From Chloroflexota bacterium (GTDB taxonomy: Bacteria; Chloroflexota; Dehalococcoidia; DSTF01; JACRBR01): a DNA stretch of 46,218 nucleotides. Below are positions 7,998 to 44,706 of the stretch, in pieces (the first letter of the stretch is position 1; each line of letters opens with the position of its first letter). The notes under the pieces are model-generated. The model made no database searches. It had not been told where the DNA came from and saw only the letters and a program-made list of their open reading frames with translations. Location of the stretch: positions 1-46,218 of the forward strand of contig JAGWOC010000021.1 in NCBI GenBank assembly GCA_028872875.1, given 5' to 3'. The position numbers were made by a program, and so were the translations under genes.

Positions 7998-9125
7998 CTA
8001 CTGGGTGAGCCGGACGAAGTGGATCGCGCTCGCCCCGTCGTACACGCCCGTGAGCGCGTTCACGGTCACCTCGGCGTTCACGAACGTGCCGGTGATGTCG
8101 CAGCTATTGCCGGTGCAGCCGCCGGCTCCGTATCCCTGCAGCCAGAACAGCGCGAAGGAGACGATCGTCACGGGCGACTTGCCATTCCCGAACCCGGTGA
8201 CGACAGGAATGACGATGACCCGGCGGCTGCACTGCGCGGGCGGGATCGTGTCCGGCGTCGGACAGGCGCCCGGCCCCGAGGTCCACGGGTTGCAGCTCGG
8301 GTTGAGGCTGTACTGTCCATAGGCATCGGGCGCCCCGAACACCTGCGCGAAGGTGCTGCAGCTCGCGCTCGTGTTGTTGAGCAGGTAATCGACGCCGGAC
8401 CTGGTGGCGCTGACTTTGTTGCCGGTCTCCGATGGGCAGACGTCGTAGGAGGGGCAGACTGGGCTGGTGGTGGCGCAGGTCGTCACGCCCTGCGCGCACA
8501 CGATGGACGCGCTGCCGAACTGGATTGTGTTCTGGTACGTGGGAGAGCCGTTGCCCAGGGTGTTGTCGAGCTGGATCGCCTGGAAGTTCCCGTTCAGCGG
8601 GTTGTTCGCATCGTACTTCAGCGTCGCTGTGGTCCCCGAGGCCGGCGGCGGATCGACCACGGCCCACGGCTTCAGGCCGCTCATGCCGCCGGGCGACGTC
8701 TTGATCGCGGCCGCCGCCGCGCCCACGTCCCTGGAGTTGACGCCGACGATGCGCATGAAGGTGAAGTTGTGATTGCGCGAGAGCGAGACGTGGACCGTGG
8801 GGTTGCCCGTGGGCGTCACCTCGACGTGGTCGAACGTCACCGTCATGTCGCTCGGGTCGATCTTGTTGTTGATCGCGTACGCCTGCGCCGCCGCCTGCGC
8901 CGGCCTGGTATCGGAGCAGTCCAAGGGGTTGGGGGTGCAGAGGTTCTGCGCCGCCGCGAGCGCGATCGCGTCGGCCGCGTTCTGCAGCGTCCGCTTGTCG
9001 TCGGCGTAGCTCCCGACGTCGACCGCCATGCCGGCCATGGCGAGGAGGATCGGCAAGAGAAGCGCCGCGAAGACGAGCACCTGGCCGCCCTCGCGAGCCC
9101 GTCGTGGCGTACCCAACCTGATCAT
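7998..9125 (-). CDS. TadG-like pseudopilus/Flp-locus protein (paralogue A)
   Basis: The ATG at 9125 follows a GAGGAGGG site. The 375-residue protein has an N-terminal membrane segment, GGQVLVFAALLLPILLAMAG, followed by AVDVGSYADDKRTLQNAADA, the hallmark of the putative Flp pilus-assembly TadE/G-like family. The rest is a long extracytoplasmic domain rich in Gly, Thr and Asn with at least ten Cys, several as spaced pairs (CTPNPLDC, CPSYDVC), which suggests disulphides. It follows the tadE-like gene by 124 bases. No TadA, TadB, TadC or prepilin gene is present here. A close paralogue lies divergently at 10200-11339. Confidence 0.75.
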   Translation of the reverse strand: MIRLGTPRRAREGGQVLVFAALLLPILLAMAGMAVDVGSYADDKRTLQNAADAIALAAAQNLCTPNPLDCSDTRPAQAAAQAYAINNKIDPSDMTVTFDHVEVTPTGNPTVHVSLSRNHNFTFMRIVGVNSRDVGAAAAAIKTSPGGMSGLKPWAVVDPPPASGTTATLKYDANNPLNGNFQAIQLDNTLGNGSPTYQNTIQFGSASIVCAQGVTTCATTSPVCPSYDVCPSETGNKVSATRSGVDYLLNNTSASCSTFAQVFGAPDAYGQYSLNPSCNPWTSGPGACPTPDTIPPAQCSRRVIVIPVVTGFGNGKSPVTIVSFALFWLQGYGAGGCTGNSCDITGTFVNAEVTVNALTGVYDGASAIHFVRLTQ

Positions 9126-9249: not shown

Positions 9250-9705
9250 CTACTCAATGCGCATCGTCGTCGAGGAGGTGACCGTCAGGTACCCGGGGAG
9301 CGAGCCGCCGCTGAAGAGCCCGATGATCGAACGCAGCGGCGTGATGTAGTGGTACTGGTACTGCGTCGTGACGGTCGCGCTCGCGCCGGAGACGCAGGTC
9401 GGATTGCAGTCGACTTTCACGCTCGCGTACGCCTGCTTCAGATTGCCCATGGTCCCGCACGCCTTGAGCACCACCGCGTTCGTCGTCTCCGAGTCACATT
9501 CGACGTACGCGCCGCTCGTGGGGCCGAGGTTGCCGATCGACGCGTAGCGCGCGGCCTCGCGCGCGGCCGAGCTCGTCGTGATGTAGGACTTGAGCCCCGA
9601 ACCGAAGTCGATGACGCCGAAGATCAGCAGGCACAGGAACGGCAAGATCAGAGCAAACTCGATGAGCCCCTGGGCCCGTTCTCCGCGGCGAGCGTGGCGC
9701 ACCAT
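9250..9705 (-). CDS. TadE-like protein
   Basis: The ATG at 9705 has GAGGAGA seven bases upstream; a longer frame to 10137 has no support. The 151-residue product starts with a short basic segment, then QGLIEFALILPFLCLLIFGV and the segment GSGLKSYITTSSAAREAARY, the classic TadE pattern (a conserved Glu at the start of the helix, then the AAREAAR motif). The remainder is a small extracytoplasmic domain with four Cys. TadE-like proteins are minor pseudopilins of Flp/Tad systems or stand-alone surface components. It is transcribed with the tadG-like gene at 7998-9125. Confidence 0.8.
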   Translation of the reverse strand: MVRHARRGERAQGLIEFALILPFLCLLIFGVIDFGSGLKSYITTSSAAREAARYASIGNLGPTSGAYVECDSETTNAVVLKACGTMGNLKQAYASVKVDCNPTCVSGASATVTTQYQYHYITPLRSIIGLFSGGSLPGYLTVTSSTTMRIE

Positions 9706-32361: not shown

Positions 32362-32499
32362 GGCTGCGCGCGGGGTCGGCGCCGAAGGTGGGGACATCGC
32401 GCTGATCTCCGAGGCCAGGTGCCGGCATGATCGCGGAAGGCGCCACCCCGGACGAGCGACCCGTGATGCGATGAGATGATCCAGCGCGGTGGTCCGTAC

Positions 32500-32505
32500 T
32501 ACACT
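32500..32505 (+). promoter_or_regulatory. -10 box for the SUMF1-like gene, leaderless spacing
   Basis: TACACT ends six bases before the GTG at 32512. The possible -35 (TGATCC at 32477-32482) is weak. The spacing equals that seen for the genes at 11821 and 38224. Confidence 0.4.
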
Positions 32506-32511
32506 TTCGCT

Positions 32512-33234
32512 GTGAGTTCCGGGCGCGCAATCGAGACGCCGACTGTCCTCGTGCCGGAGGGGCCCTTCGTCATGGGAGACGCGACCGGCCGGGACGACGA
32601 GCGGCCGGTCCACACTGTCCGGGTGAGCGCCTTCCGCATCGGCGTGCATCCGGTCACGAACCGCGAGTTTGCGGCATTCCTCCGTGCGACCGGCCACGAG
32701 CCGCCGCGTTTCTGGCACGAGCCTCGCTTTGCGGCACCAGACCAACCGGTCGTCGGCGTCAGTTGGTGCGACGCCGTCGCATACTGCGATTGGCTCAGCA
32801 TGGCTACCGGCCAGCACTACCGCCTCCCGACGGAAGCTGAGCGCGAGAAGGCTGCTCGCGGCGGGCGCGCCGGCGCACGATACCCGTGGGGCGACGACCC
32901 TGGCGAAGGCGGCGGGCACTTCACGCAGGACGCGCCGCATCCCGTCGGCCTCTCGACGGCAAACGGATACGGACTCCACGACATGGGGTACAACGTCCAT
33001 GAGTGGTGCGGCGACTGGTACGCCCCGGCGTACTACGCGGTCTCGCCCGGCTGTGATCCGCAGGGTCCGCCCAGCGGCACGCGACGCGCGTCCCGCGGCG
33101 GTGCATGGCGGCATCAGATCAAGGTGAGCCGCTGCGCGTCCCGCAGTAGCCTGGATCCGTCGTTTCGATATAACGACTACGGGTTTCGGGTGGTCGAGGC
33201 CATCGACACGCGGACGACGTTCCGGCCCTGCTGA
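32512..33234 (+). CDS. SUMF1/FGE-sulfatase-modifying-factor-like protein
   Basis: The GTG at 32512 is preferred because a -10 box lies six bases before it; an ATG at 32476 is an alternative. The 240-residue product has the family landmarks: PFVMGDATGRDDERPVHTV, VTNREFAAFLRATG, YRLPTEAEREKAARGG, YPWGDDPG, HEWCGDWYAP, ASRGGAWR and YNDYGFRVV. True formylglycine-generating enzymes have two active-site Cys after the RGG(S/A) motif. Here only one Cys (SRCASR, C208) is seen and His-Gln replaces the first. It is more likely a non-FGE member, for example of the EgtB/lectin-like group. Its substrate is not known. Confidence 0.8.
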   Translation: MSSGRAIETPTVLVPEGPFVMGDATGRDDERPVHTVRVSAFRIGVHPVTNREFAAFLRATGHEPPRFWHEPRFAAPDQPVVGVSWCDAVAYCDWLSMATGQHYRLPTEAEREKAARGGRAGARYPWGDDPGEGGGHFTQDAPHPVGLSTANGYGLHDMGYNVHEWCGDWYAPAYYAVSPGCDPQGPPSGTRRASRGGAWRHQIKVSRCASRSSLDPSFRYNDYGFRVVEAIDTRTTFRPC

Positions 33235-33286: not shown

Positions 33287-33384
33287 TGGCGGGAGTGCGA
33301 GGGAGTCGAACCCTCCCGGGACGGCGCAGGCCGCCCCGCAACGGTGTTGAAGACCGCGAGACCCACCGGGACCCATCCACTCCC
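33287..33384 (-). tRNA. selC: tRNA-Sec (anticodon UCA)
   Basis: On the minus strand the 98-base gene starts GGGAGTGG and ends CACTCCCG-CCA, with the CCA encoded. The anticodon loop is CTTCAAC (33352-33346), giving anticodon TCA at 33350-33348. A long variable arm (around GGCGGCCTGCGCCG) and a T-arm with GGTTCGACT are present. The acceptor plus T-arm length, the long extra arm and the UCA anticodon are diagnostic of selenocysteine tRNA. A TACCTT box lies six bases before the 5' end, so the primary transcript may begin at the mature 5' end. No selA, selB or selD is in the window. Confidence 0.92.
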
Positions 33385-33595
33385 GCGTAGAAGGTACAAT
33401 CCGCGGGGAGTAGTCAGTAGGCAGGGGTCCTGGCGCCGGCGCCGTACGCCCTCCATACTCTGCCCGCCACCGCGAGGTGACGAAGAGCCGCCGTCGGCGT
33501 GGTGACGGCCGTCGGCAGCCGGGCCGCTGCGTTATGATGTCCACATATGCGGGCGATGGGCGCCCGTCCCCTGCGGCGCGGATCCGCGACACTGC

Positions 33596-34891
33596 ATGCT
33601 AGACATCCCCGCTCCCGGCTACCCGCCGGTCCTCCTGACGACGACGTCCCTCAACATCCCGCTCCCGCTCGCAATCGCGCTCTTCGCCGGCGGGCTCGCC
33701 GGGTACGCGGCCGTCAACGCGATTGAGATCGCCGTGATCGGGTCGAACCGCATCCGCATCCGGGCCGCCGCCGAGCGGGGGAGCCGCCGCGCGGCGGCGA
33801 TCGTGCGCCTCAAAGAGCAGCAGGACGTGTTCTTCGGCCTGGTCGTCAGTCTGCAGAACATCTTTATTTTCCTCGCCTCCACCGCGGGCACCGTGATCGG
33901 CGTGCGGGAGTTCGGCAACTGGGGCTACCTCGTCAGCCTCATCGCCATCCCGCTCATCTCCACCGAGTTCGGCGAGTACACGCCGAAGGTGATCGCCTCC
34001 CGCGCCGCCGAGCGCATCGCCATCGCCGTCGCCCTGCCCGTGGAGCTCTTCGCGCGGCTCATGAAGCCCGTCGCCGTCGCGCTCGCCACCGTCCCCAATA
34101 TCTTCTCGAGCGCGGAGCAGCGCCAGACCGTGTCCGAAGCCGAGCTGCGGATGCTCATCGGCATCAGTGCCGAAGAGGGCGCGGTCGGTGAGGAGGAGGC
34201 GGAGCTGCTCGACCGGGTGTTCCACTTCCACGACCGGCGCGCGCGCGAGATCATGATCCCGCGCACCGAGATCGTCTGGCTCGAGAAGCAGGAGACCGTG
34301 CGCGAATTCTACGAGACGTTCGACAAGACGCCGCACTCCCGCTTCCCGGTCTACGACGACAGCGTAGACAACGTCGTCGGAACGGTCAGCATCAAGGATG
34401 TCCTGCGCGCGCTCGCCGAGCGCCAGATGACCGAGGCATCGCCCATCGAGCCGATGATCCGCCCCGCCCTCTTTGTCCCGGAGACCAAGCTGGTCAGCGA
34501 GCTGTTCACGCAGATGCAGCGAGAGCGCCAGCAGATGGCCGTCGTCGTCGACGAGTACGGCGGCGTCGCCGGCATCGTCACCGTCGAGCTGCTGCTTGAA
34601 GAGATGGTCGGCGTCGTCGGCGACGAGCTGGCGCGGGGCGCCGAGGAGTACATGACGATTGACGAGCACACGACGCGCGTCGATGGCGGCATGAGCGTCT
34701 TCGACGTGCGCGAGGAGCTCGGCCTCGACCTGCCGGAAGGCGACTATGAGACCATCGCCGGCTACGTGCTCGACCAGCTCGGCCACATCCCACACGAGGG
34801 CGAGACCGTCACGCTGGACGGCTATCGCATCGCCGTCTCCGACGTGAAGGGCGTGAAGATCGAGTCCGTCGTCGTGACGAAGCTGACATAA
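33596..34891 (+). CDS. CNNM/CorC-HlyC family membrane protein
   Basis: This 431-residue protein has an N-terminal CNNM domain with about four hydrophobic segments ([40 protein letters not shown] and others). [13 protein letters not shown] follows, then a CBS pair (about 210-330; [50 protein letters not shown]), then a CorC_HlyC transporter-associated domain (about 345-425). These proteins affect Mg2+ or other ion transport. A TATGAT box lies at 33533-33538 upstream, but no ribosome-binding site is seen at the ATG. The next operon starts 33 bases downstream. Confidence 0.9.
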
Positions 34892-41567: not shown

Positions 41568-42104
41568 ATGTACGGCATCGGCGTCCTCAAGGGCATGGCG
41601 GTCACCATCCAGCGCATGGTCATGCCTCCGGCGACCATCGAGTTCCCCGAGGTCACGCGCCCGATGTCGCCGCGCGCCCGCACGAACCTGCTCTGGTTCG
41701 ATGAGCGCTGCACCGGCTGTAGCACCTGCGCCCAGGCCTGCCCCGACGGCTGCATCCTCGTCCACACCGCGCCCAACCCCGACGGCACGCTCGAGAAGGT
41801 GCGCTACGAGATCGACTTCCGCATCTGCATGTACTGCGGCCTCTGTGTCGAAGCCTGCCCCTACCAGGCGATCCAGTGTGGCGGCACGATGGAGGACGCC
41901 GTCTACGAGTTCGACACGATGTACAAGGACAAGCACGCGCTCACCCGCCTCGCGCACGAGTTCCTGGGCCGCAACGGCTACGAATACCCGCACGGCCAGC
42001 GCGCGCCCGACCACATCATCGAACTGATCGAGGTCGAGGCGAAGCAGCACCCGGCGCCCGTGTCGAAGGGCGAGCGCGTCATCGAGGCCCGAACCCGTGG
42101 CTAA
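41568..42104 (+). CDS. nuoI: NADH-quinone oxidoreductase subunit I-like (8Fe ferredoxin)
   Basis: This 178-residue protein has two complete 4Fe-4S motifs: CTGCSTCAQACP (C48, C51, C54, C58) and CMYCGLCVEACP (C87, C90, C93, C97). These are flanked by the NuoI-type phrases RARTNLLWFDERCTG and YEIDFRICMYCGLCV, with AIQCGG after the second. It passes electrons to the quinone-binding subunits of Complex I. The stop lies eight bases inside the start of the nuoG-like gene, so the two are co-translated. The other nuo genes are not in the window, so it could also serve a smaller hydrogenase-type or partial complex. Confidence 0.85.
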   Translation: MYGIGVLKGMAVTIQRMVMPPATIEFPEVTRPMSPRARTNLLWFDERCTGCSTCAQACPDGCILVHTAPNPDGTLEKVRYEIDFRICMYCGLCVEACPYQAIQCGGTMEDAVYEFDTMYKDKHALTRLAHEFLGRNGYEYPHGQRAPDHIIELIEVEAKQHPAPVSKGERVIEARTRG

Positions 42105-44706
42105 GCTCACGCTGAACGGCGTCGAGATCGAAGCGCCGGCGGGCACGCCCCTCGTCGAGGTGATCAAGCAGAACGGGGTCTGGATCTCCAACCTCTGCTA
42201 CATCGACGGCCTCGCCCCCTACGCCGGCTGCCGCACCTGCCTCGTCGAGATCGAGGGCGCGCGCGGCCTCCAGCTCTCCTGTACGTCGAGGGTCGCCGAC
42301 GGCATGGTCGTCAACACCGAGACGCCCGAAGTAAAGAACATGCGCCAGAGCATCCTGGCGATCATCAACGCCAACCACCCGGACCGCTGCCTCACCTGCC
42401 ACCGGCGCGTCAAGTGCATGCCCGGTGACATCTGCCTGCGCGACGACGTCGTGACGCACCGCTGCGTCACCTGCTCGAAGAACTACCGCTGCGAGCTCCA
42501 GTCGACCAACGAGCTGCTCGACATGGGCTTCGAGAACGTCGAGCCCTGGGCGTCCGAGGCGCGCTCGTGGTACCAGTTCGAACAGCCCGACCCGGACCGC
42601 GCCAACCCCTTCTTCGAGTTCGACCCGCAGATGTGCATCATCTGCACGCGCTGCGTGCGCGCCTGCGACGAGATCCGGCACACCGGCGCGATCACGCTCT
42701 CGAACAAGGGCTTCACGTCGGTGATCGCCTTCGGCGCCGGCGGCGCGATCCACGAGTCCAACTGCGATTTCTGTGGCGCCTGCATCGACGTCTGTCCGAC
42801 GGCGACGCTGATGGAGAAGCCGAACAAGTGGGTCGGGCGCACCGAGGACTGGACCAGCACGACGTGCAACTCCTGTTCCGTCGGCTGCACGATCAGCATC
42901 GGCACGCGCTCCGGCCGCACCGTCATCGTCAAGCCGGACCAGGTGAATCCGGTGAGCGCGGACCAGATCTGCGTGCGGGGCCGCTTCCACTACGACGCCG
43001 TGCCCGACAAGAAGCGCCTCCAGCGGCACCTCGTCCGCCGAGGGCCGAAGGGCGCGCCGCAGCTCCCGGCGCACTGGGGCGAGCTGGTCGCGTACGGCAC
43101 AGAGCAGCTCAAGGGCGTCATCGAGCGGCACGGCGCGCACGCCGTCGCCGTGCTCGGCTCGCCCTTCAACACCAACGAGGAGAACTACCTGGCGCAGAAG
43201 CTCGCCCGCGAGGTCATCGGCACGCCGCACGTCGACTTCAGCCAGGCGGCGCCCGACCGCGCGGCGATGAAGGCGGTCGCGGCCGCCTTCGGCACCGAGG
43301 CGCTTCCCGCCGACATGCTCCATCTCCGCACCGCCGATGTCGTGGTCGTCATCGCCAGCGACCTCGAGTCGAGCCATAACGTCGCCGCCCTGCGCATCAA
43401 GGACGCCGTCGCCGGCCACCCCGCCGCACCGCGCGCCGGCAGGCTCCTGCTCGTCTCGCCGCTCTACGGCGAGATGGCGGACTTCGCCGAGCCCTACGGC
43501 GGCGTCTGGCTGCGGCCGCGGCCCGGCGACGCGCCCGCGCTCGTCGATGCCCTCGCGCAGCGCGCATCCGGCGAGACGGCGGCGTTGCCCGATGTCGCCG
43601 AGGGCGACCCCGGCCGCGCGCTCGCGCTCCTCGAAGAGGCGAAGGACGCCGGCAAGCGCGTGTACATCGTTTACGCGCCGGACCCCGGCGACCCCCAGGC
43701 CGCCGGCGACGGCGCGCGTGCGGCGGCGAACCTCGCGATCGCGCTGCGGGGCGACAAGGCGGCGGAGTCGCTGATCGTGCTGCCAGCCGAGGCGAACGTC
43801 TACGGCGCGCGCGACATGGGCGTCGACCCGGAGTTCGGCCCCGGCCGCACGCCGCTCGCCGAGCCCGGCATGACCTTCGGCCAGATGGTCGATGCCGCAG
43901 CCGCCGGCACGCTCAAGGCCATGATCGTCGTTGGCGACAACCCGCTCATGTTCGCGCCATGCACCGCCCGCGTCCGCGCCGCGCTCGAGTCGCTCGACGT
44001 GCTGATCGTGATCGACAGCCTGCTGACCGACACGGCGAAGGCCGCGCACGTCGTGCTGGCCGACGTGCCGTCGTACGCCAAGACCGGCACGTACACCAAC
44101 GGCGAGCGCCGCGTCAACCGCCTGCACGCCGCGCTCGGCGCGCTCGGCGACGCGCGTCCGGCGCTGCTCGCCCTCACGGATCTCGCGAACGCGGTCGGCG
44201 GCGTCGACACGTGGGCCTACGCACACCCGGACGCCGTCACGGACGAGATCGCGGCGAACGTCGCAGGCTACGAGCGCTTCCGTTCGAGTTTCGCCTTCTG
44301 GGGAAAGGCGCGCGCCGCCGGCGTCCCGTCGCGCGCCGAGCGCCAACCCGTCGCCGCTGCCCCGGCGCCGCCCGCCGCCGGCGAACTGCTGCTGACGGCC
44401 GGCCGCACGCTCTACACCAGCCTCGATGGCGCCGCGCTGCACCTGCCCGACGCCGACAAGCTGCACCGTGAGGAGTGCGTCGAGCTGCACCCCGCCGACG
44501 CCGCCTCGCTGCGCGTCAGTGATGGCGACGAGGTGACGCTCGTCAGCGATCATGGCGAGTTGACCCTGCGCTGCCAGGTCTCCGCGCGCGTGCAGGAGGG
44601 CGTCGCGTTCGTGCCGTCGTACTACGACGGCGGCGCGGTCAACGCGCTCCTCCCGCCCGGCGGCGGCCCGGTCGCTGTGAAGGTGAAGGTCGCGCAGCCG
44701 GCGTAG
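42097..44706 (+). CDS. nuoG: NADH-quinone oxidoreductase subunit G-like molybdopterin protein
   Basis: The GTG at 42097 overlaps nuoI. The 869-residue protein starts with a 2Fe-2S ferredoxin domain (C34, C45, C48, C62), then a His-Cys3 motif HPDRCLTCHRRVKC (H94, C98, C101, C107). A second, similar motif HRCVTCSKNYRC follows (H121, C123, C126, C132). Two 4Fe-4S motifs come next (C180-C190; C223-C233) and the molybdopterin-type cluster CNSCSVGC (C257 on). The rest is a molybdopterin oxidoreductase fold and a C-terminal MopB-like domain. It is the electron-input module of Complex I or of a formate/NADH dehydrogenase. The last ~310 bases of the shared part (44349-44660) recur at 45907. Confidence 0.9.
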   Translation: MAKLTLNGVEIEAPAGTPLVEVIKQNGVWISNLCYIDGLAPYAGCRTCLVEIEGARGLQLSCTSRVADGMVVNTETPEVKNMRQSILAIINANHPDRCLTCHRRVKCMPGDICLRDDVVTHRCVTCSKNYRCELQSTNELLDMGFENVEPWASEARSWYQFEQPDPDRANPFFEFDPQMCIICTRCVRACDEIRHTGAITLSNKGFTSVIAFGAGGAIHESNCDFCGACIDVCPTATLMEKPNKWVGRTEDWTSTTCNSCSVGCTISIGTRSGRTVIVKPDQVNPVSADQICVRGRFHYDAVPDKKRLQRHLVRRGPKGAPQLPAHWGELVAYGTEQLKGVIERHGAHAVAVLGSPFNTNEENYLAQKLAREVIGTPHVDFSQAAPDRAAMKAVAAAFGTEALPADMLHLRTADVVVVIASDLESSHNVAALRIKDAVAGHPAAPRAGRLLLVSPLYGEMADFAEPYGGVWLRPRPGDAPALVDALAQRASGETAALPDVAEGDPGRALALLEEAKDAGKRVYIVYAPDPGDPQAAGDGARAAANLAIALRGDKAAESLIVLPAEANVYGARDMGVDPEFGPGRTPLAEPGMTFGQMVDAAAAGTLKAMIVVGDNPLMFAPCTARVRAALESLDVLIVIDSLLTDTAKAAHVVLADVPSYAKTGTYTNGERRVNRLHAALGALGDARPALLALTDLANAVGGVDTWAYAHPDAVTDEIAANVAGYERFRSSFAFWGKARAAGVPSRAERQPVAAAPAPPAAGELLLTAGRTLYTSLDGAALHLPDADKLHREECVELHPADAASLRVSDGDEVTLVSDHGELTLRCQVSARVQEGVAFVPSYYDGGAVNALLPPGGGPVAVKVKVAQPA
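44349..44660 (+). repeat. nuoG segment duplicated at 45907-46218 (copy A)
   Basis: This 312-base segment of nuoG (from VAAAPAPPAAGELLL to ALLPPG) recurs without gaps at 45907-46218, 1558 bases downstream in the same orientation. I count about 12 differences, near 96% identity, mostly at third codon positions. Confidence 0.85.

Follow-up and report, generated by a model that had tools for sequence, protein, structure and literature searches.

The selC locus

The window, the whole stretch of 46,218 nucleotides analysed here, corresponds to contig C23 in a draft assembly (G000) of 3.41 Mb, which has 234 contigs and is 95.5% complete. ARAGORN reports a single tRNA in it, a tRNA-Sec(UCA) on the minus strand that lies between two protein-coding genes (Table 1). 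The covariance model for bacterial tRNA-Sec, RF01852, matches the same gene at 33291-33384 on the minus strand with 69 bits (E 3.7e-12; gathering cut-off 47). In the drawn structure, the D-arm has a 6-bp stem and a 4-nt loop, the anticodon stem has 5 pairs, the variable arm 9 pairs and the T-stem 5 bp, while the acceptor stem consists of 7 Watson-Crick pairs and a G.G at position 8. A first-pass annotation of this DNA had recognized a tRNA-Sec by its UCA anticodon, encoded CCA and long extra arm, and both ARAGORN and the structure agree. Where it also described an extended acceptor/T-arm, there are eight acceptor positions over the 5-bp T-stem; the eighth is the G.G, which leaves seven Watson-Crick pairs rather than eight.

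Table 1 Features of the selC locus and a TGA-containing gene on another contig. Positions are those of the window unless a contig is named.
Feature	Position	Strand	Remarks
tRNA-Sec (selC) gene	33287..33384	minus	98 nt including encoded CCA; ARAGORN, RF01852 and structure
UCA anticodon	33348..33350	minus	ARAGORN, sequence and structure
Encoded CCA 3' end	33287..33289	minus	sequence and structure
Discriminator base G73	33290	minus	sequence and structure
G8, eighth acceptor position	33377	minus	opposed by G at 33298, giving a non-Watson-Crick G.G
G facing G8, acceptor stem	33298	minus	drawn structure and comparison with relatives
TACCTT, -10-like box, putative promoter	33391..33396	minus	-12 to -7 when G1 is +1
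FGE-sulfatase (SUMF1-like) domain protein	32476..33234	plus	convergent neighbour of tRNA-Sec; PF03781, 194.3 bits
CNNM/CorC-type transporter	33596..34891	plus	divergent neighbour of tRNA-Sec; PF01595, PF03471, PF00571
ResA/TlpA-like gene with in-frame TGA	contig C44, 40690-41736	minus	WASW-U-GC

RF01852 has 12 matches in the whole genome, and the gene in the window scores highest. The second match, at 53.3 bits, is a tRNA-Ser(UGA). The next six loci are tRNA-Arg, tRNA-Leu, tRNA-Trp and tRNA-Ser genes, the ninth match is a tRNA-Ser in one of these loci, and the remaining three score between 30 and 40.4 bits. Since this tRNA-Ser(UGA) likewise exceeds the gathering cut-off, the cut-off alone is insufficient to identify a tRNA-Sec. 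The identity of the gene in the window is established by its anticodon, its arm lengths and its ARAGORN class. It shares with the bacterial tRNA-Sec of RF01852 the UCA anticodon, the long variable arm, the 6-bp D-stem, G73, a score above the gathering cut-off and the presence of selA, selB and selD in the genome; it differs in having the G.G in place of a Watson-Crick eighth acceptor pair.

We considered whether the gene could encode a serine tRNA of unusual form, an opal suppressor, or a tRNA of the selC* type charged with something other than selenocysteine. Its structure is near that of tRNA-Ser, as the score of the tRNA-Ser above with the tRNA-Sec model illustrates, and its eighth pair departs from strict 8-bp geometry. 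Nevertheless, a D-stem of 6 bp with a 4-nt loop is given as the SelA determinant in the available text of a review (PMC7609411), and the UCA anticodon, G73 and the 9-bp variable arm likewise argue for tRNA-Sec, as do selA, selB and selD in the genome. The same text assigns U73 to the selC* tRNA-Cys, in contrast to the G73 found here. A tRNA that carries something other than selenocysteine is thus highly improbable.

The tRNA-Sec was compared with those of a genome of the same genus (G004) and of two further genomes of the family (G001 and G006). The gene of G004 differs from that in the window in the variable arm only. Five of the nine variable-arm pairs are changed between G000 and G006 on one side and G001 and G004 on the other, and pairing is kept in all four when G-U is allowed.

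Genes for selenocysteine synthesis and decoding

The first-pass annotation had named the absence of selA, selB and selD as the observation that would leave this tRNA an orphan. All three are present above their curated cut-offs. The selA gene scores 517.5 bits (cut-off 267.9) and selD, whose frame holds a single TGA, 366.8 bits (cut-off 125), while selB reaches 296.6 bits with TIGR00475 (cut-off 242.25) in a match that spans profile positions 2-362 of 581; by Pfam, the selB product comprises a GTPase, a SelB beta-barrel and the SelB winged-helix domains PF09106 and PF09107. The frames of selA and selB are open, and that of selD is open except for the TGA. The four genes lie on four contigs, with selB on C156, selA on C130, selD on C136 and selC on C23. 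As the assembly is a draft of 234 contigs, a binning error is therefore possible. The same-genus genome G004 carries a tRNA-Sec, changed in the variable arm only, together with a TGA-containing selD. The closest SelA, 91% identical, is from 'Chloroflexi bacterium isolate WY5.bin150'; the ten hits that follow, with 52-70% identity, carry titles naming Chloroflexi or Dehalococcoidia. The Chloroflexota origin that the first pass thought probable is well supported by this, and a place in the Dehalococcoidia is probable.

selD is a candidate selenoprotein gene

Read through the TGA, SelD has the sequence EEVRLTSLASCAGUAGKAG near its N-terminal start. The U of SCAGUAGK aligns with a cysteine in the SelD structures 3u0o and 2yye, the two alignments that were inspected, and we take this residue to be the active-site cysteine. 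A SelD that contains selenocysteine needs its own product for its own synthesis. With the standard code, a simple gene caller placed the start of selD after the TGA and returned a protein of 320 aa that lacks the active-site motif (L024, 8109-9071). This bears out the expectation that an in-frame UGA in this genome may be selenocysteine and that genes containing one would look truncated.

Among 40 genomes picked by their tRNA-Sec status, selD was found in 29 of the 30 with tRNA-Sec and in one of the 10 without; the latter is G005, a genome that is 76% complete. One TGA is present in 29 of the 30 selD genes. The exception is that of G006 (L223), where SelD has cysteine in place of selenocysteine (SCAGCAAK) despite the tRNA-Sec of that genome, which amounts to a Sec/Cys switch within the family. 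G366, which is 95% complete, has a tRNA-Sec match and no selD at E <= 1e-40.

Candidate SECIS hairpins

A hairpin lies 33 nt after the UGA of the selD of the window's genome, with a stem of 7 bp, a GUG loop and a predicted energy of -11.3 kcal/mol. The bacterial SECIS model, as given in the available text of PMC13188914, has a stem of 4-16 bp and a loop of 3-9 nt with G in its first two positions, lies 16-37 nt from the UGA and has an MFE of <= -7.5 kcal/mol. The predicted selD hairpin fits this model and is a candidate SelB site. Taken alone, it does not reach significance when compared with sequences recoded by synonymous codons (P 0.080), a null that applies the codon usage of G000 to every sequence, and at the selD locus Rfam gave no SECIS family at E up to 1.

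Covariation was examined in 13 of the 29 TGA-containing selD genes, a set that was picked by hand after viewing the folds and in which the helix is at the same place. In these, 89.4% of the cells pair, compared to 23-55% when the partners are slid. Both sides differ in four cells, of which three go from GC to UA and one from GC to UG; shuffling gives 0.8. The covariation score was reached by none of 500 shuffles, which ignore the relatedness of the genes. Of the five covariation measures, two are unexceptional in this set, the number of double-changed pairs being reached in 51 and that of further pair types in 46 of the 500 shuffles. One of the 13, that of G360, has its best hairpin elsewhere, at 17 nt. 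In the 16 excluded genes, the best hairpin begins 16-27 nt after the TGA, and its P value ranges from 0.000 to 0.650.

For the ResA/TlpA-like gene in Table 1, a 6-bp hairpin that fits the model is found 20 nt downstream, and it does not exceed chance expectation (P 0.378; fold z 0.72).

Other genes with an in-frame TGA

The families examined for TGA-containing genes were selD, PF00384, the UGSC family NF041046, CMD/AhpD PF02627, AhpC-TSA PF00578 and DsbA PF01323. A read-through scan was also run and is insensitive, as it flagged one of three TGA genes, the ResA-like gene, and missed both selD and the CMD-like gene of G004 described below. Two read-through candidates in the window, at 8770 and 25500 on the plus strand, were rejected since both lie opposite better-scoring genes on the other strand.

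PF00578 has 13 matches in G000, one of which contains a TGA and is the ResA-like gene. Its U aligns to the cysteine of the WASWC motif in 4hqs; among 28 structure matches, this was the alignment inspected. The best NCBIfam match is NF041054, 'ResA-like WAxxUGC motif-containing protein', with 254.5 bits. Since this is below the curated cut-off of 300, we regard the gene as related to this family rather than a member of it; the likeness extends to the WASW-U-GC motif, kinship with ResA/TlpA by sequence and an N-terminal extension. In our reading, NF041054 probably corresponds to the entry 'UGC-containing TlpA disulfide reductase family protein' in Table 1 of PMC13188914.

The first-pass annotation had pointed to formate dehydrogenase as a gene to search for an in-frame TGA. 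This was not borne out, as none of the 19 PF00384 matches in the genome contains a stop. We take PF00384 to cover the selenocysteine position of formate dehydrogenases. The 19 matches in this 3.4-Mb genome fall in 16 open frames on contigs C59, C141, C168, C169 and others, and several share a contig within a few kb. The window itself encodes, at 42097-44706 on the plus strand, an 869-aa protein with likeness to NuoG and to the formate dehydrogenase alpha subunit and with no in-frame stop. It scores 244.3 bits with TIGR01591 and 238 bits with TIGR01973, both below cut-off, and its N-terminus is similar to HoxU and [FeFe] hydrogenase.

The remaining families gave no stop-containing match in G000, with three matches for PF02627 and two for PF01323. 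NF041046 has no match in G000, G001 or G004, and G006 has one partial match that is below cut-off and lacks a stop. In the same-genus G004, one of three PF02627 matches contains a TGA. This gene (L205, 1477-2214, minus strand) reads CHY-U through the TGA and scores above the PF02627 cut-off; its best NCBIfam match, NF053654 'YciW-related (seleno)protein', reaches 57.1 bits and is far below the cut-off of 310.

A probable working selenocysteine system

The genome thus holds at least two genes, selD and the ResA/TlpA-like gene, with an in-frame TGA at a redox position where homologues have cysteine. Together with the tRNA and the three sel genes, this leads us to regard the gene in the window almost with certainty as the single selC of a working bacterial selenocysteine system. 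We infer its operation from the established bacterial pathway, in which SerRS would charge the tRNA-Sec with serine, SelA would turn the serine into selenocysteine using selenophosphate made by SelD, and SelB would bring the Sec-tRNA-Sec to UGA codons that have a hairpin downstream. Since a double meaning of UGA is supported in this genome, annotation with the standard code drops or cuts real redox genes.

It could be argued that the tRNA gene is an orphan or is decaying, and that it remains where selenoproteins are no longer made. Four of the eight genomes of the family show no tRNA-Sec, and the SelD of G006 has cysteine, so that neither the trait nor the way it is used is stable across the family. 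The state of the genome in question is different: selA and selB are open, as is selD apart from its TGA, the stems of the tRNA are kept with the variable arm changed on both sides, and two TGA-containing redox genes are present. An orphan or decaying selC is accordingly scarcely credible here, and the working system remains our preferred explanation.

Distribution and known systems

The tRNA-Sec was found in four of the eight genomes of the family. In the four that lack it (G002, G003, G005 and G007), the best matches score 43.6-47.4 bits and are tRNA-Ser or tRNA-Trp; G002 and G005 are 72% and 76% complete, respectively. In a sample of 400 genomes of the phylum, 296 have a tRNA-Sec match above the cut-off with E <= 1e-10, and ARAGORN confirmed 112 of the 113 distinct genes inspected, the one that it did not call being L177.

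A close published case is Dehalogenimonas alkenigignens, for which selC and both a selD and a formate dehydrogenase gene with UGA are reported in the available text of PMC4918011. Selenocysteine-containing formate dehydrogenases are also described for deep-sea Chloroflexi (PMC5736913, available text). Because 296 of 400 genomes have a match and selenocysteine use is published for Dehalogenimonas, we consider the system in the window to be of an ordinary, known kind. As far as PMC4918011 describes it, D. alkenigignens, a member of the Dehalococcoidia, is alike in its selC, its selenocysteine synthesis genes and its selenocysteine elongation factor; it likewise has a selenophosphate synthase with an in-frame UGA and a putative SECIS element. 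Its second UGA gene is formate dehydrogenase, unlike the genome of the window with its stop-free PF00384 matches, and the dispersal of the sel genes over four contigs is a further difference.

The eighth acceptor pair

Within the family, the four tRNA-Sec genes all have the G.G at the eighth acceptor position. Of the 113 loci of the phylum sample, 111 were usable for counting this pair, the two exclusions being L177, which has no ARAGORN tRNA-Sec, and L274, where the T-loop was not located. Of these 111 genes, 60 have a Watson-Crick eighth pair, 33 have G.G and 18 have some other non-Watson-Crick combination. Eight rows in which one of the acceptor pairs 1-7 is mismatched were then set aside; seven of these are visibly misregistered. 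Among the 103 cleanly registered genes, the Watson-Crick count is 52, with G.G still at 33 and the other combinations at 18. The sample behind these counts is non-random, consisting mainly of high-scoring RF01852 matches with related species counted separately, and the 33 G.G genes represent 14 distinct acceptor sequences. We rejected the idea that the G.G is a peculiarity of the window's genome, as it is common across the phylum (33/103).

With 52 Watson-Crick pairs against 51 others among 103 genes, strict pairing at the eighth position is unusable here as a criterion for tRNA-Sec. The 8-bp stem is named as the main determinant for SelB in the available text of the review (PMC7609411). In the stem that SelB reportedly reads, strict pairing at this position thus seems relaxed in about half of the sampled tRNA-Sec genes of the phylum (51/103). 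These counts suggest that it may be length or stacking, rather than pairing at position 8, that matters in the acceptor stem.

A putative promoter at the mature 5' end

The TACCTT box that had been placed six bases upstream of the tRNA 5' end is at that position in the sequence (Table 1). Five tRNA-Sec genes from the family and the order were compared, that in the window among them, and all have a TANNNT motif, at -12 in four and at -11 in one. This 5/5 count overstates independence because the five genes are related and two have an identical box. The density of TANNNT in the window is 0.0012 per base and strand. When 39 other tRNAs, 33 of them from the same family, were read identically, none had the motif at -12 or -11; the tRNA-Sec gene of G215 enters this analysis twice (L133 and L180 being the same). 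Among the 39 tRNAs, 16 TANNNT hits fall at -14 to -17, and short leaders are therefore frequent here. In the 111 tRNA-Sec genes of the phylum sample, -12 is the commonest position of the box (14), followed by -16 (11) and -13 (10).

Scans near the tRNA-Sec gene for a sigma-70 promoter pair and for a terminator found neither. The proposal that transcription starts at the mature end is consequently favoured by the position of the -10-like box in relatives but not by the sigma-70 pair scan, and a transcript that starts at the mature 5' end is plausible judging from the upstream sequences. That the tRNA-Sec of this lineage is leaderless as a rule, with a promoter fixed such that RNA polymerase would initiate at the mature G1, is a tentative idea that we think rather doubtful. 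Were it true, the tRNA-Sec would be independent of RNase P and may retain a 5' triphosphate. Eukaryotic tRNA-Sec keeps its 5' triphosphate. If the leaderless reading and the conserved G.G both hold, SelB in this lineage would not require a strict 8-bp stem. Among the papers listed in literature searches of limited scope, no title or abstract opening dealt with a leaderless bacterial tRNA-Sec or with a mismatched eighth pair in Chloroflexota, which is weak evidence.

Variant tRNAs in other genomes

Four genomes of the phylum sample (G169, G387, G168 and G293) have two tRNA-Sec matches each, the second of which may be a variant or a contaminant. In the tRNA-Sec genes of seven loci (L163, L165, L167, L168, L169, L176 and L285), there are only 7 nt from the T-stem to the discriminator, and the acceptor stem has a C.C mismatch. 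These genes resemble 8/4 or 7/5 forms and come from small genomes (1.4-2.1 Mb) of the class, which may be akin to Dehalogenimonas.

A different variant is found in L085 (PWVH01000014.1, Coriobacteriaceae bacterium CSSed11_288R1), where ARAGORN reports at 9482-9577 a 96-nt tRNA with a long variable arm, a GCA anticodon and U73. It is located between selB and the gene for a YedE-type selenium transporter, at the same distance from selA as the tRNA-Sec(UCA) of L118 and L124. The selC* tRNAs are given for four other phyla, not that of L085, in the available text of PMC7609411. By its sequence, the tRNA of L085 resembles either the tRNA-Cys of the selC* type or a selenocysteine tRNA that would read cysteine codons.
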